Notes under the pieces: generated by a model
Database searches by the model: none
Told to the model about the DNA's origin: nothing
What the model saw: the letters and a program-made list of their open reading frames with translations, nothing else
Source of the DNA: a bacterium
GTDB taxonomy: Bacteria; JAJRZV01
Direction of reading: 5' to 3'
NCBI GenBank assembly: GCA_024275095.1
Contig: JAJRZV010000065.1
Span: 1-49,265 of the forward strand
Length of the DNA stretch: 49,265 bases
Position numbers and translations under genes: made by a program
Part shown: in pieces, positions 23,728-28,894 of the stretch
Layout: each line of letters begins with the position of its first letter
Numbering within the stretch: the stretch's first letter is position 1

Positions 23728-23757
23728 TGACGTTTTTAATAAGGTAATGTTATTGTC
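23728..23757 (+). promoter_or_regulatory. Promoter of the Rrf2/sulfur region, probably leaderless
   Basis: TTGACG (23728-23733), 18 bp, TATTGT (23752-23757). Only seven bases separate the -10 from ATG 23765, and there is no Shine-Dalgarno, so transcription should begin at or next to the start codon. Confidence 0.5.
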
Positions 23758-23764
23758 CTGTATC

Positions 23765-24241
23765 ATGATGAAACTAACCACGGAGGCGAAGTACGCAGTG
23801 CTTGCGCTCCTCGACATGGCACTTTACAGCGATGAAGGTCATACAACCCTTGCAGAAATCGCTGCGCGTCAGGGCATACCTCTACGATTCTTAGAGCAAA
23901 TTTTTCACAAACTTAAAAAAGCAGGAATTGTTCATGCACGCAGAGGTCCAGGTGGAGGATATGCCTTCAGCCGTGCCACATCTCAAATCACCGTGGGTGA
24001 TGTAATAGAGGCCATCGAAGGGCCCATATCTCTTTCCGGATGCCACGTGGCAAGCGAACAGAGCCTGCGTTCATGTGCCATCTCAGACAGGTGTTTGACC
24101 GACTTTCTCTGGGCCGAACTCGGCAAAATGATCAGCAATTTCTTCGATTCCATTACTATTGAAGATCTGTGCGAGAAACGTAAGCGCATCAAGGCTCCAC
24201 TTGCCGGTGATAGCAGCAAGGGTGGAGTGGAATGCGCTTGA
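23765..24241 (+). CDS. Rrf2-family transcriptional regulator with IscR-like cysteines
   Basis: 158 aa winged-helix regulator. The start is ATG 23765 or the adjacent ATG 23768; the frame could run to 23747, but this would include the -10 box. It begins MMKLTTEAKYAVLALLDMAL, the standard Rrf2 opening. The wing and recognition helix lie in IPLRFLEQIFHKLKKAGIVHARRGPGGGY. Three Cys (93, 104, 110) match IscR-type Fe-S ligands, here spaced Cx10Cx5C where IscR has Cx5Cx5C. The His ligand of IscR (CLTH) is Asp (CLTD). Its stop is 17 bp from threonine synthase, so it probably heads and senses for the sulfur operon, comparable in role to CymR; that role is inferred. Confidence 0.85.
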   Translation: MMKLTTEAKYAVLALLDMALYSDEGHTTLAEIAARQGIPLRFLEQIFHKLKKAGIVHARRGPGGGYAFSRATSQITVGDVIEAIEGPISLSGCHVASEQSLRSCAISDRCLTDFLWAELGKMISNFFDSITIEDLCEKRKRIKAPLAGDSSKGGVECA

Positions 24242-24258: not shown

Positions 24259-25518
24259 ATGGGATTTGTAAAAGGCTTGCGTTGTAGAGAATGCGGGAAA
24301 GAATTTCCCAACGAGCCATTGCACGTGTGCGATATGTGTTTTGGACCGCTGGAGGTGGTCTACGATTATCAGCGTATTCGGGAGCACCTCAACCGTAAAG
24401 TCATTGCCAAACGCCCCCACAACATGTGGCGGTACAAGGAACTTCTGCCGCTGGACGGCGAACCGACTGTCGGACTGGAGGTAGGCTGGACACCTCTCAT
24501 TCGAGCTCACAATCTCGAACGATATCTGGGCGCCAAGGAAATATACATCAAAAATGATGCGGTAAACCATCCGTCACTCTCTTTCAAAGACCGTGTGGTC
24601 GCAGTGGCCCTATCCAAAGCCAAAGAATTCGGTTTCACCACTGTGGCCTGTGCCTCCACCGGCAATCTTGCCAATTCAGTGGCATCCAATGCTGCAAGTG
24701 CGGGGCTTGAAAGCTTTGTATTCATTCCGTACGACCTGGAGGAAACCAAGATCACAGGAACGTTAATCTATGGCTCGCAGGTCATTGCCATACGAGGAAC
24801 ATATGACGAGGTTAACCGCCTCAGCAGTGAAATTGCAGGTAAATACGGGTGGGCATTTGTAAACATTAACATCCGTCCTTATTATGCCGAAGGTTCCAAG
24901 ACCTTTGCTTTTGAGCTGGTTGAACAACTTGGCTGGAAAGCACCCCTTCATATTGTGGTGCCCATGGCAGGCGGGTCTCTCATTACAAAGATATGGAAAG
25001 CCATCCGCGAAATGAAGGAAGTTGGTCTCATCGACAAGTTCAATACAAAAGTATACGGAGCCCAGGCCACCGGATGTGCACCCATCACGACCGCTGTAAA
25101 GGAAGGCAGGGAACTCTTCAAGCCTGTCAGACCTAACACCATAGCAAAGTCCCTGGCCATTGGTAATCCTGCTGACGGTTACTACGCCATTAAAGCCATC
25201 AACGAGAGCGGCGGCTGGGCAGAAGACGTGAGTGATGAGGAGATTATTGAAGCAATGAAAATCCTGGCGCGCACTGAAGGGATATTTACAGAAACAGCAG
25301 GAGGAGTAACGCTTGGAGTGGCCATCAAACTCATGCAACAGGGCAAGCTACCCAAGGATGAACCCATTGTTATCAGTATCACCGGGAACGGACTCAAAAC
25401 CCAGGAGGCCCTGCAGGGGCACCTGGATACTCCACTCACCATAAATGCTAAGCTGGACGAGTTCGATGCCCTTTTAAAAGACATCAAGAGACAAAAAAAG
25501 GGTGCCTCTGCTTCCTGA
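24259..25518 (+). CDS. thrC: Threonine synthase
   Basis: 419 aa PLP enzyme converting O-phospho-L-homoserine to threonine. An N-terminal zinc-ribbon-like Cys set (C9, C12, C24, C27) precedes the fold-type II core. The PLP lysine is K110 in HPSLSFKDR; ACASTGNLANSVASNAA binds the cofactor phosphate, and ETAGGVTLGVA and SITGNGLKT are conserved near the C-terminus. RBS AAGGAGGTG lies upstream. It sits between the Rrf2 regulator and a cysteine synthase homologue, 6 bp apart. A threonine gene inside a sulfur operon is odd; a related phospho-amino-acid substrate cannot be ruled out. Confidence 0.88.
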   Translation: MGFVKGLRCRECGKEFPNEPLHVCDMCFGPLEVVYDYQRIREHLNRKVIAKRPHNMWRYKELLPLDGEPTVGLEVGWTPLIRAHNLERYLGAKEIYIKNDAVNHPSLSFKDRVVAVALSKAKEFGFTTVACASTGNLANSVASNAASAGLESFVFIPYDLEETKITGTLIYGSQVIAIRGTYDEVNRLSSEIAGKYGWAFVNINIRPYYAEGSKTFAFELVEQLGWKAPLHIVVPMAGGSLITKIWKAIREMKEVGLIDKFNTKVYGAQATGCAPITTAVKEGRELFKPVRPNTIAKSLAIGNPADGYYAIKAINESGGWAEDVSDEEIIEAMKILARTEGIFTETAGGVTLGVAIKLMQQGKLPKDEPIVISITGNGLKTQEALQGHLDTPLTINAKLDEFDALLKDIKRQKKGASAS

Positions 25519-25524
25519 AGGGGA

Positions 25525-26487
25525 ATGGGTTTGGAAACGCTGAAAGCTCACAACATCATCACGCGTGAAGAGTATGAGGCTCTGAAAAGGAGGTCAGTAC
25601 TGGAGCTTATCGGCAGCACCCCCATGGTAGAATTGAAGAAAATACGGGCTTATACAGGCGTTAAGGGACGTATTTTCGCCAAGTTGGAAAGTTACAATCC
25701 CGGCGGTTCTGTCAAAGACCGTCCGGCCATTCGAATGATCGAACAGGGTATACTTTCGGGCGAGCTTACACGTGATAAAGTCATCCTGGATTCCACCTCG
25801 GGCAACACCGGAATCGCTTATGCCATGATCGGGGCGGTGCTGGGAATTCCTGTGGAACTCTGTGTGCCAGCCAATGTTACCGAGGAAAGAAAAAAAATTC
25901 TTAAGGCCTTTGGAGCCAAGGTCATTTACACCGACCCGATGGAAGGTTCTGATGGTGCCATCAAGGAGGCTCAAAGATTGTACCAGACCTATCCCGAGCG
26001 GTATTTCAAACCCGACCAGTACAACAATCCTGAAAATGCAATGGCTCACTATCTCGGCACAGCCGAGGAGGTCATTCATCAAAGTGACGGAAAGGTCACC
26101 CATTTTGTTGCAGGTCTTGGAACAACCGGCACACTTATGGGTACAGGAAGAAGATTAAAGGAGTTCCGCAAGGACATTCAGATTATCGCTGTGGAACCAT
26201 CATGCCCCCTTCACGGAATCGAGGGGTTGAAACACATGGAAAGTTCAATAGTTCCGGGACTGTATGATCCTGGATTTCCAGATAGAACAATATTCGTGGA
26301 TACTGAAGATGCGTACGAATGGGTGAGAAAAATTTCTGAACTGGAAGGTATCTTTGCGGGTGCATCTTCAGGTGCCGCTCTTGCAGCAGCGGTAGAGGTG
26401 GCCAGGGAGTCCAGGGATGCATATGTGGTAACAATTTTTCCCGACGGAGGGGACCGCTATCTCAGCACACGAATCTGGAGCGCGTAA
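25525..26487 (+). CDS. cysM: Cysteine synthase of the CysM type (possible carrier-dependent)
   Basis: 320 aa fold-type II PLP enzyme. PLP lysine K64 lies in NPGGSVKDRPA; STSGNTGIAYA, GLGTTGTLMGTGRRLKE and FAGASSGAALAAA are the cofactor and substrate loops. The C-terminus FPDGGDRYLST is the CysM form. Family enzymes make cysteine from O-acetylserine plus sulfide, or, as in Mycobacterium, from O-phosphoserine plus the thiocarboxylated carrier CysO. A JAMM protease gene 2 bp downstream and then a CysO-like carrier point to the second reaction. RBS is weak (GAAGGGGAATG region). Some 25 residues precede the usual start (SVLELIGSTPMVEL), typical of a longer subgroup. The carrier route is inference from context. 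Confidence 0.85.
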   Translation: MGLETLKAHNIITREEYEALKRRSVLELIGSTPMVELKKIRAYTGVKGRIFAKLESYNPGGSVKDRPAIRMIEQGILSGELTRDKVILDSTSGNTGIAYAMIGAVLGIPVELCVPANVTEERKKILKAFGAKVIYTDPMEGSDGAIKEAQRLYQTYPERYFKPDQYNNPENAMAHYLGTAEEVIHQSDGKVTHFVAGLGTTGTLMGTGRRLKEFRKDIQIIAVEPSCPLHGIEGLKHMESSIVPGLYDPGFPDRTIFVDTEDAYEWVRKISELEGIFAGASSGAALAAAVEVARESRDAYVVTIFPDGGDRYLSTRIWSA

Positions 26488-26489
26488 CC

Positions 26490-26903
26490 ATGGGAATTGT
26501 TATAGATGGAGAGAGCCTTCGAATCATGCAAGAGCACGCCCTCAAAACCTATCCGTATGAATGTTGTGGAGCGCTTCTGGGTCTCGATGGTGAAGTTAAA
26601 GAGGCTCTACCTCTTCAAAACGTGGAAGAGGAAAATCCACGCCGCCGTTTTCAAATAGACCCGAAGGATTTTATGTATATAGAAAACAGGGCCCGTGAAC
26701 TGAGATTGCAACTGCTGGGTATCTATCACTCCCACCCTGATCATCCTGCGCGCCCTTCGGATTTTGACCTTTCCATGGCGTGGGAGGGATTATCGTATGT
26801 AATACTTTCAGTAAGTGAAGGCAAGGTAGAAGATGTGCGATCTTTCCGCCTGAAAAAAGGCGGAGGAGGGTTTGTGGAAGAAGACATTCAATTCAAAACT
26901 TAA
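26490..26903 (+). CDS. JAMM/MPN+ metalloprotease (Mec-like)
   Basis: 137 aa zinc isopeptidase-type protein. The JAMM set is complete: E24 (YPYECCGALLG), H80-S-H82-P, then S90 and D93 (PSDFD). In Mycobacterium, the Mec protein releases cysteine from the CysO-cysteine adduct; bacterial JAMM proteins of this size sit in cysteine and siderophore gene clusters with MoaD/ThiS-like partners. Here it lies between the CysM-like synthase (2 bp) and a MoaD-NIL fusion (16 bp). It could cut carrier-cysteine, or could free the carrier's internal Gly-Gly from the NIL domain. Both are inferred; the catalytic residues are seen directly. Confidence 0.9.
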   Translation: MGIVIDGESLRIMQEHALKTYPYECCGALLGLDGEVKEALPLQNVEEENPRRRFQIDPKDFMYIENRARELRLQLLGIYHSHPDHPARPSDFDLSMAWEGLSYVILSVSEGKVEDVRSFRLKKGGGGFVEEDIQFKT

Positions 26904-26919
26904 AAATAGGAGGTTGGTG

Positions 26920-27438
26920 ATGGCTGTGAAAGTAAGAATTCCCACACCCCTGAGGAACCTCACAGAAGGCAAGGATGAGGTCACAATTGAAGGAAGCACA
27001 GTAAGAGAAGTGCTGGAGAATCTTGAAAAAGCACATCCTGGCATAAAGGAAAGGCTTTTCGACGAAAACGGCAACCTGCGACGTTTTGTAAACCTGTTCC
27101 TCAACGATGAGGATATCCGCTTCCTGAAGGAACTGGATACAGCACTCAAAGATGGTGACATACTCTCCATCGTTCCAGCCATAGCAGGCGGAGTGGAGGT
27201 GAAAAAAAAAATCTATCTCACATATCCTCCTGAACTGGTAAAAGAACCCATCATCTGGAAGGCAGGGCAAATGTTCCGCATTGTAACGAACATTCGCTCT
27301 GCCTCTGTTAAAAAAGACGTGGGACTGGTGGCTCTGGAGATAGACGGGGATGAAGAGGAAGTAAACAAGGCCCTGCGGTGGTTCGAAGATCAGGGTATCA
27401 AAGTAGAACCCATTGAACAGGATGTTGTGGAGGGTTGA
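26920..27438 (+). CDS. MoaD/CysO-like sulfur carrier fused to a NIL domain
   Basis: 172 aa; ATG 26920 has TAGGAGGT at 26907-26914 (a start at 26872 would run through this site). Residues 1-91 have the beta-grasp fold of MoaD/ThiS/CysO: VKVRIPTPLRNLTEGKDEV, TVREVLENLEKAHPGIKERLF, RRFVNLFLNDEDIR, then LKDGDILSIVPAIAGG. The Gly-Gly at 90-91 corresponds to the C-terminal thiocarboxylate site. In a classical carrier the chain would end here. Instead it continues through VEVKK into a NIL domain (about 97-170: IYLTYPPELVKEPIIWKAG, SVKKDVGLVALEIDGDEEEV, LRWFEDQGIKVEPI), a ferredoxin-like ligand-binding fold known from methionine transporters. Use as a carrier would need cleavage after GG, or the protein acts in another way. 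No E1-like activating enzyme is in the window. Confidence 0.88.
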   Translation: MAVKVRIPTPLRNLTEGKDEVTIEGSTVREVLENLEKAHPGIKERLFDENGNLRRFVNLFLNDEDIRFLKELDTALKDGDILSIVPAIAGGVEVKKKIYLTYPPELVKEPIIWKAGQMFRIVTNIRSASVKKDVGLVALEIDGDEEEVNKALRWFEDQGIKVEPIEQDVVEG

Positions 27439-27492: not shown

Positions 27493-27735
27493 ATGAAAAA
27501 AGAGAACAAAAAGCACGTGATAGAGGCACGCGGCACAGTATGCCCCATGCCAATTATAAAACTTTCGCAGAAGATGGCCTTGCTTTCGCCCGGAGAGGTT
27601 GTGGAGCTCATGGCTACAGACCCGGGAGTTCTGGAAAACGTTCCGGCGTGGTGTCAAAGCACCGGGCATGAATGTATAGAAGTGAAACGGGTTGAAGATT
27701 ACTACGTGGCGGTTGTGCGCAAAAAGGAGGTCTAA
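27493..27735 (+). CDS. tusA: TusA-family sulfur carrier protein
   Basis: 80 aa. The start ATG 27493 gives MKKENKKHVIEARGTVCPMPI, with the sulfur-accepting Cys17 in the CPxP motif that defines the family. An upstream TTG (27454) would add 13 unlike residues. The second half has SPGEVVELMATDPGVLENVPAWCQSTGHE, also typical. TusA proteins pass persulfide sulfur between enzymes. Lying between the MoaD-NIL fusion and ATP sulfurylase, it may feed sulfur to the carrier or take part in sulfite/thiosulfate handling. Its end contains the ribosome binding site of the sat gene (AAAGGAGG). Confidence 0.9.
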   Translation: MKKENKKHVIEARGTVCPMPIIKLSQKMALLSPGEVVELMATDPGVLENVPAWCQSTGHECIEVKRVEDYYVAVVRKKEV

Positions 27736-27736
27736 G

Positions 27737-28894
27737 ATGCTGAATTTTCACGGTGGCAGACAGGTAGAAAAACTCGTGTCTGAGGAAAAACGTGAGTCGT
27801 TGTTAAAAGATATAGAAAAACATCCCGCTTTAGAAGTCGATGAGGCATTCCTGTGCGATATTGAAATGATGGCTACCGGAGCGCTCTCTCCTGTAGGGGA
27901 GTCCATGAAAAAGGAGGACTATCAAAGCGTACTTTCAGAAATGCGACTCTCTGACGGTGTGCTCTGGCCTTTCCCCATTGTCGTGAGAGTGAGCGCAGAG
28001 GATGTCGAACGTTTTAAAAAAGTGGATACATTGCGTCTGGTCCACAAGGGAAAATGCTACGCACTTCTTCATGTGGAAGACATCTATTCCTACAATCGTG
28101 AAGAAGAGGCGCTTCGGGTGTACGGTACAACCAGCACTGAGCATCCCTCGGTAAAACGCCTCGTAGAAGCTGGAAGTTACATCATCGCCGGCCCTATTGA
28201 TGTGCTCCGGCGACCCCTGGAAACTCTTTTTCCGGAGCACAACCGGACGCCGTCACAGTTGCACCAGCTCATCATTCAAAAAGGCTGGAAAACGGCCGTG
28301 GGGTTTCAGACACGCAATCCCATACATCGGGCACATGAGTACATTCAGAAATGTGCTCTTGAAATTGTAGATGGTCTTATCGTCAATCCGCTGGTAGGCC
28401 TTACCAAAAAAGATGATATTCCCGCTGATGTACGCATGAGATGCTATGAGGTACTTCTTGAAAATTACTATCCCGAAGAACGCGTGATACTTTCCATCTA
28501 TCACGGTGCCATGAGATATGGTGGTCCCAGAGAGGCTGTGTTTCATGCCATCACGCGTAAAAACTACGGATGTACGCATTTTATCGTTGGACGTGATCAT
28601 GCGGGCGTTGGCAATTTTTACGGTCCGTACGATGCCCAGAAAATTTTTGACACCATCGACTCTTCTGAGCTGGGTATTACCCCTCTCTTTTTTGAAAACA
28701 GCTTTTACTGCCGTCGGTGTGGTGGAATGGCCTCTTTCAAGACCTGTCCCCACGACGGAGAAGGAGACCGCCTTGTATTCAGCGGCACACGCGTGAGGGA
28801 AATGCTCTCGAGGGGGGAGGTTCCTCCACCTGAATTCAGCCGACCGGAAGTGATATCGATTCTTCTGGAATATTACCAAAGTAAAAACTCATAA
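27737..28894 (+). CDS. sat: Sulfate adenylyltransferase (ATP sulfurylase)
   Basis: 385 aa, a compact single-domain homo-oligomeric type. It activates sulfate with ATP to APS, or works in reverse in sulfur oxidisers. Active-site motifs are QTRNPIHRAHE (191-201), GRDHAG (285-290) and FSGTRVREML (348-357). A zinc-binding set C325, C328, C337, H339 matches bacterial enzymes of this class. ATG 27737 has AAAGGAGG at 27723-27730; an upstream in-frame start at 27692 would lie within tusA. No APS reductase or APS kinase is in the window. It closes the sulfur operon. Confidence 0.95.
   Translation: MLNFHGGRQVEKLVSEEKRESLLKDIEKHPALEVDEAFLCDIEMMATGALSPVGESMKKEDYQSVLSEMRLSDGVLWPFPIVVRVSAEDVERFKKVDTLRLVHKGKCYALLHVEDIYSYNREEEALRVYGTTSTEHPSVKRLVEAGSYIIAGPIDVLRRPLETLFPEHNRTPSQLHQLIIQKGWKTAVGFQTRNPIHRAHEYIQKCALEIVDGLIVNPLVGLTKKDDIPADVRMRCYEVLLENYYPEERVILSIYHGAMRYGGPREAVFHAITRKNYGCTHFIVGRDHAGVGNFYGPYDAQKIFDTIDSSELGITPLFFENSFYCRRCGGMASFKTCPHDGEGDRLVFSGTRVREMLSRGEVPPPEFSRPEVISILLEYYQSKNS

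Follow-up and report, generated by a model that had tools for sequence, protein, structure and literature searches.

In Wolinella succinogenes, methionine is reportedly made through the protein-thiocarboxylate pathway of Krishnamoorthy and Begley (2011), which uses HcyS, HcyD, HcyF and MetY. The tail of one residue that follows the Gly-Gly (GG) of HcyS is said to be removed by a JAMM protease, and the system reportedly also has an E1-like enzyme without rhodanese domain and a sulfate-assimilation gene in its cluster. In Mycobacterium, Mec releases the product from its carrier (PMC3227635). In Deinococcus, a linear MoaD-MoaE fusion is cut by the JAMM protease DRJAMM and needs this JAMM (PMC8832034). 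MoaX of M. tuberculosis is cut after Gly82, and uncut or uncuttable MoaX is inactive, with some residual uncut MoaX having been observed (PMC4326299). In Desulfovibrio, a NIL/ferredoxin protein and DUF39 are required for homocysteine, and at least one more homocysteine pathway is still to be found (Price et al. 2018, PMC5764234). Some bacteria possess methionine synthase together with no known homocysteine-making enzyme, and the gene cluster described here represents a concrete candidate for what they use.

The cluster lies in a window of 49,265 nucleotides (the whole stretch of DNA that was analysed), and its features are collected in Table 1. ORF calls, Pfam matches and motif residues confirmed the arrangement reported in the first-pass annotation, namely a MoaD/CysO-like carrier with Gly-Gly at residues 90-91 followed by a NIL domain, encoded downstream of a CysM-like gene and starting 16 bases after the stop codon of a complete JAMM protease gene. 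The Rrf2 gene, the ThrC-like gene (ThrC2), TusA and the ATP sulfurylase gene are neighbours that this annotation had left unmentioned. Against NCBIfam, the Rrf2 protein scored 144 bits with the IscR model and 80 bits with the CymR model, both below cut-off, while the top model for the CysM-like gene was cysM (366 bits versus a cut-off of 394), and Mycobacterium CysM (3dki/3dwg) is among the solved relatives of its product. The neighbourhood comparison placed Rrf2 genes and TusA close to carriers at several other loci as well, and Sat is close to the carrier also in L065, L074 and L084. Because a search of the window's own phylum returned the window's genome alone, these comparisons rest on 192 genomes spread across the domain.

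Table 1. Features of the carrier-NIL gene cluster, with positions in the window.
Feature	Position	Strand	Basis or remark
Rrf2-family regulator (IscR/CymR-like)	23747..24241	+	first gene of cluster; Pfam Rrf2 E 2e-37
ThrC2, threonine-synthase-like PLP enzyme	24259..25518	+	PALP E 4e-70
CysM-like cysteine synthase	25525..26487	+	PALP E 6e-63
JAMM/MPN+ metalloprotease	26490..26903	+	Prok-JAB E 4e-25
MoaD/CysO-like sulfur carrier fused to NIL domain, 172 aa (ATG start)	26920..27438	+	ThiS and NIL Pfam matches
Carrier domain, residues 1-91, ending PAIAGG	26920..27192	+	ThiS E 1.5e-16
Gly90-Gly91 codons, proposed cleavage and thiocarboxylation site	27187..27192	+	invariant in 9/9 fusions
A10 run just past GG codons, possible slippage site	27202..27211	+	A-run comparison
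NIL domain, residues 98-163	27211..27408	+	NIL E 2.8e-12
TusA/SirA-like sulfurtransferase	27493..27735	+	TusA E 4e-22
ATP sulfurylase (Sat)	27737..28894	+	ATP-sulfurylase E 7e-94

Both Pfam matches of the fusion protein, with ThiS covering residues 5-91, exceed the curated cut-offs. The fusion is more than a chance event because the 192-genome search recovered eight further full-length fusions with invariant GG, which share 49-60% identity over ~170 residues and come from other families and lineages of bacteria. In the nine aligned sequences the GG is followed by a linker of a few residues and then by NIL, and the motif PAxAGG is invariant in all fusions. Each relative that was extracted has GG closing its carrier domain, nearly always as AGG. 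As encoded, the GG of the window's carrier is internal (90-91 of 172 residues), leaving no free GG end. An AlphaFold2 model of the fusion consists of two folded domains (mean pLDDT 85, pTM 0.53), and pLDDT falls below 50 at residues 89-91, indicating a flexible joint at the GG. The nearest solved sequences to the carrier domain are CysO of Amycolatopsis (4n6e_B) and of Mycobacterium (3dwg_C), and Foldseek also matched this domain to CysO (4n6e, 3dwg). Standalone carriers end at GG or bear short tails beyond it (KF, AA, TH, R, SC and others). Another internal GG beside JAMM was seen in L015-L031 (mostly Acidobacteria), where MoaD-GG-linker-E1 fusions are encoded downstream of CysM and JAMM. The two-domain structure 1v8c was considered as a solved MoaD-NIL fusion and rejected, as its sequence aligns poorly past the GG and its whole chain matched the fold at 12 A rmsd.

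The JAMM protein carries the complete motif (E24, H80, H82, S90 and D93), and its nearest solved sequences are 2kcq, 2kks and 5lda. A survey of whether JAMM accompanies MoaD-NIL fusions, which the first-pass annotation had proposed, found a JAMM scoring above cut-off in each of the fusion genomes (9/9; 25/26 among all genomes tested). In six of the nine it is encoded no further than ~3 kb from the fusion, and in the remaining three it lies away from it. Split systems have JAMM just as often, so it is not specific to the fusion. Given the separate NIL genes described below, the short-tailed standalone carriers, the MoaD-GG-E1 fusions beside JAMM and the DRJAMM and MoaX precedents, a cut after Gly91 is the likeliest maturation. 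The earlier proposal that JAMM separates the carrier from NIL now appears very likely, as the GG is invariant, its joint is predicted to be flexible, NIL is separate and tails are short in relatives, and MoaD fusions and MoaX offer precedents; by this analogy, the JAMM protease next door probably cuts the window's fusion after Gly91. It probably frees the product from the carrier too, as Mec does in Mycobacterium.

Two other explanations of the internal GG were weighed. The fusion might work uncut, with GG as a mere flexible linker and NIL positioning or regulating a carrier that either does not become a thiocarboxylate at all or is charged otherwise. The three fusion genomes without JAMM near the fusion are compatible with this, and so is an uncut form as a possible regulatory state, given the residual uncut MoaX (PMC4326299). 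However, the invariance of PAxAGG in fusions, the closing of the carrier domain by AGG in nearly every relative, the inactivity of uncut or uncuttable MoaX (PMC4326299) and the need of Deinococcus MoaD-MoaE for its JAMM (PMC8832034) make it very doubtful. Alternatively, the carrier could be a ubiquitin-like protein modifier (SAMP-like) and JAMM its desampylase, as the NCBIfam SAMP1 model matched at 63.8 bits (cut-off 60) and the desampylase model matched JAMM at 68 bits. This is highly improbable, because the latter score falls well short of the 130 bits required by the desampylase model and the conserved neighbourhood is one of sulfur and amino acid metabolism, with dual roles being possible.

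Of all A runs in the window, the A10 just past the GG codons is the longest. Junction A-runs in the nine fusions are 10, 8, 1, 7, 9, 9, 10, 6 and 6 nucleotides in length, whereas the median where standalone NIL genes start is 3 (p = 0.0014). Wherever the run of a fusion reaches 7 or more, slippage by one base would stop translation ~7-27 residues past the GG, and the product would be a carrier with a short tail. Slippage on the A-run may thus let one gene yield a short-tailed carrier plus the carrier-NIL protein. The possibility that A10 is an assembly artefact was rejected, as the reading frame continues across the joint in all nine genomes, three of which are without a run longer than 6. Internal initiation was also considered as a way of freeing NIL, with a GTG at 27199, preceded by a GGAG-like stretch, giving MKKKIYLTYP, which resembles standalone NIL starts; it is not a general mechanism because most of the other fusions looked at are without such a start codon.

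NIL was found as a separate small gene (~80 aa) in 15 other genomes, often beside a standalone carrier, JAMM or E1. NIL thus belongs with the carrier system as a partner and is not a fixed part of the carrier. The fused and separate states are mixed on the ThrC2 tree, with at least five changes of state. The first-pass annotation had held that homologues with NIL beside a separate full carrier and without a JAMM neighbour would speak against its reading; NIL apart from a full carrier was indeed found, yet this counts in favour of NIL acting as a free partner rather than against it. Of 24 genomes with NIL, whether fused or small, 23 also have ThrC2 (p = 6e-20; p = 4e-5 among carrier genomes), the linkages having been found and tested on the same genomes, and the lone NIL genome without ThrC2 has a ThrC fragment at a contig end. 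NIL tracks ThrC2, not the CysM-only carriers. Tandem NIL arrangements were seen as well, namely one protein with two NIL-like halves (L076:4468-4962) and two adjoining NIL genes (L072:7932-8423), near Rrf2, TusA, E1 or carrier.

What NIL might bind was approached through its fold. Foldseek matched the second domain of the fusion to the C2/NIL domain of MetN, and alignment to MetN C2 (3dhx/3dhw) places N124 of the fusion (codon 27289-27291) at MetN N295. Given that the N295A mutation in MetN abolishes L-methionine binding (PMC12357092) and that N124 is invariant across fused and separate NIL domains, a methionine-responsive NIL is plausible. Reading from one aligned Asn and a generic fold, we tentatively suggest that NIL could bind methionine or a close relative. 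The first-pass annotation had taken NIL for a regulatory or targeting domain that perhaps senses methionine or metal, and the proposed sensing of methionine gains support from the nearest fold being MetN C2 and from the invariant equivalent of N295.

ThrC2 has threonine synthase models as its best NCBIfam matches and scored ~200 bits to 1uim (Thermus) and 2zsj (Aquifex); its Lys110 aligns with the PLP lysine, which is kept in the clade. In the tree, 31 ThrC2 rows group together (SH-aLRT 100) versus 26 canonical ThrC rows, and the window's ThrC2 does not fall with characterised ThrC. The clade has other residues at many sites that do not vary in ThrC, and 31 positions are switched between ThrC2 and ThrC, including T88L, S155N, N157R and R160Y, and the position of Asn191 is also uniformly replaced. 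The window's protein thus has L137, N204, R206 and Y209 in place of Thermus ThrC Thr88, Ser155, Asn157 and Arg160, each of which is swapped for one other residue in all or nearly all of the 31 ThrC2 rows. These four Thermus residues, we presume, sit at the substrate phosphate. ThrC2 is also the most constant neighbour of the carrier, lying within 2 kb of it in 30 of 35 genomes and mostly across a gap of less than 200 bp. It stays beside the carrier without nearby CysM in L064, L065, L070, L071, L075, L082 and L101, and CysM is likewise missing from the surroundings of several fusion loci. A canonical ThrC is encoded elsewhere in 25 of 26 genomes, the copy of the window's genome being on contig C37 and 41% identical.

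ThrC2 could be a second threonine synthase, diverged or sulfur-regulated, whose linkage to the carrier reflects co-regulation of aspartate-family and sulfur amino acids. Consistent with this, its top NCBIfam matches are threonine synthase models, and the complete genome G170 encodes ThrC2 without any further ThrC at E 1e-20, as would be expected if ThrC2 made threonine. By contrast, the uniform replacement of T88, S155, N157 and R160, the canonical ThrC kept by 25 of 26 genomes and the mostly short ThrC2-carrier gaps argue against such a role, and we regard it as quite unlikely. On balance, we lean towards ThrC2 being an enzyme that uses the carrier thiocarboxylate, and the chances that its product is homocysteine appear evenly balanced.

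The supply of homocysteine bears on this question. The window's genome encodes MetH, and searches of this genome gave no full-length match to the MetB/MetC/MetY/MetZ family (PF01053; best partial match 33 bits) and no match to DUF39 (PF01837). MetH without PF01053 was found in 18 ThrC2 genomes, and DUF39 is absent in all 16 of them checked, these gene-absence calls including MAGs, which can miss genes. PF01053 is present in 13/35 ThrC2 genomes versus 103/157 (Fisher p = 0.0037; p = 0.0024 for MetH-bearing genomes), in tests that, like those on NIL and ThrC2 above, treat the genomes, nearly all from different families, as independent with phylogeny uncorrected. The exclusion is partial, given these 13 ThrC2 genomes with PF01053 and two with DUF39. 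Moreover, MetH may serve S-adenosylmethionine recycling alone, so that a missing known homocysteine synthase is not proof of de novo homocysteine synthesis. Neighbourhood clustering of the loci placed no homoserine-activating enzyme in the conserved set. Across the 192 surveyed genomes, 22 have MetH but no PF01053, ThrC2 or NIL-ferredoxin-like match, and further hidden homocysteine routes are possible.

Taken together, the presence of MetH without PF01053 or DUF39, the negative association of ThrC2 with PF01053, the co-occurrence of NIL with ThrC2 and the participation of NIL in the DUF39 route point to the ThrC2-carrier-NIL set making homocysteine rather than cysteine, with CysM serving cysteine. 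The first-pass description of the locus as a variant of carrier-dependent CysM/CysO/Mec cysteine synthesis found no support as stated, since NIL tracks ThrC2 rather than CysM and several fusion loci are without CysM nearby. A CysO/CysM/Mec-type pathway for cysteine only would have CysM as the acceptor, JAMM both maturing the carrier and releasing cysteine, and the ThrC-like gene as an ordinary threonine synthase sharing the operon. That CysM, JAMM, carrier and E1 commonly go together in threes or fours where ThrC2 is missing (L008-L031; Iyer et al. 2006, PMC1779556), that the nearest solved relatives of the carrier are CysO proteins, and that CysM adjoins JAMM in the window, where CysO-like carrier, CysM-like enzyme and JAMM make up one neighbourhood, are all in keeping with it. 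Such a pathway is nevertheless unlikely to be the whole account, because ThrC2 forms a clade of its own whose loop residues are rewritten, a canonical ThrC is encoded elsewhere, ThrC2 stays by the carrier at seven loci without nearby CysM, and NIL follows ThrC2, not CysM.

Two ThiF proteins are encoded in the window's genome. The one on contig C11 (L001:1465-3426) has no rhodanese domain, is unlinked to the carrier and lies beside DsrE-like genes and a second TusA. It is 64-69% identical to the E1 enzymes adjoining most other carriers, and is likely the E1 for the window's carrier. E1 enzymes of such sulfur-assimilation clusters are known to be without rhodanese and to be accompanied by SirA/TusA proteins (Iyer et al. 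2006, PMC1779556). Contig C10 holds a small ThiS-like domain (C10:859-1023, locus L006) just upstream of a TtuA-like adenylyltransferase; they are probably a tRNA thiolation pair.

We propose the following mechanism for homocysteine synthesis by the cluster. The carrier would be made as a carrier-GG-NIL precursor, and there are strong grounds to infer that a JAMM cut after Gly91 exposes the GG end and sets NIL free. Judged by orthology, the E1-like enzyme of contig C11 would adenylate the GG end, while TusA and other sulfur-transfer proteins would supply the sulfur for the thiocarboxylate. Two fold-type-II PLP enzymes would then use this thiocarboxylate, CysM for making cysteine and ThrC2 for making homocysteine from activated homoserine, most likely O-phosphohomoserine, and JAMM would hydrolyse the carrier-amino acid adduct. 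NIL, acting in trans or before cleavage, might be a methionine/homocysteine sensor or a docking partner of the ThrC2 branch. Whether the cluster is a thiocarboxylate system like that of Wolinella, with ThrC2 as homocysteine synthase in the place of MetY, cysteine made by CysM and the product sensed by NIL, is a matter of even odds to us. A bolder reading, in which ThrC2 is an unrecognised thiocarboxylate-dependent homocysteine synthase for bacteria without known routes, NIL (as cleavable tail or separate gene) is its methionine-sensing subunit and A-run slippage is possibly added, has a probability of about 0.42. ThrC2 thus has a reasonable chance of being a new homocysteine synthase. If so, a widespread clade now labelled 'threonine synthase' would have to be reannotated, the recurrence of NIL domains in unrelated homocysteine routes would be explained, and a logic resembling ubiquitin fusions, with JAMM freeing a carrier from its partner, would be placed in amino acid synthesis. 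A literature search for MoaD with NIL, or for threonine synthase with MoaD and homocysteine, yielded no description of this system; its coverage was incomplete and an earlier description is possible.

Several solved proteins resemble parts of the cluster. The 'MoaD related protein' of Thermus thermophilus (1v8c) is likewise a two-domain protein with a MoaD-like domain, an internal GG and a second domain, but its second half aligns poorly to NIL in sequence. The C2 domain of MetN (3dhw, 3tui, 3dhx) has the same fold as the window's NIL and the same Asn in the NIL motif (N295 in MetN, N124 in the window), whereas the window's NIL is not on an ABC ATPase and has a putative ligand. ThrC2 has the same fold-type-II core and PLP lysine as ThrC (Thermus 1uim, Aquifex 2zsj), but differs from it in clade and in the residues at the Thr88, Ser155, Asn157, Arg160 and Asn191 positions.

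As to whole systems, the cluster resembles that of Wolinella HcyS in having a carrier with residues past the GG, a JAMM protease, a sulfate-assimilation gene in the cluster and a rhodanese-free E1-like enzyme in the genome, and in the proposed passage of sulfur as thiocarboxylate to activated homoserine. By contrast, its tail consists of an entire NIL domain instead of a single residue, CysM lies inside the cluster, and a ThrC-like fold-type-II enzyme stands in place of MetY (PF01053); given this absence of MetY, the cluster is not a member of the Wolinella type as defined. With CysO/CysM/Mec of M. tuberculosis it shares a CysO-like carrier, a CysM-like synthase and JAMM side by side. However, CysO ends at its GG and goes with neither NIL nor ThrC2, while the window's genome has a rhodanese-free E1, with TusA in the cluster; the cluster is thus not a plain CysO system, because its carrier has the GG inside the protein and the set is characterised by ThrC2 and NIL. 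The DUF39 and NIL/ferredoxin route of Methanosarcina and Desulfovibrio (PMC5764234) also places NIL in a homocysteine route without PF01053, whereas the window's genome is without DUF39 and its NIL, lacking a ferredoxin domain, is attached to a carrier. Finally, the Deinococcus MoaD-MoaE and MoaX proteins combine a MoaD-like domain, an internal GG and a fused partner, and in them the cut after GG is required (PMC8832034, PMC4326299); in the window the partner is NIL instead of MoaE, and the proposed pathway is one of amino acid rather than molybdopterin synthesis.
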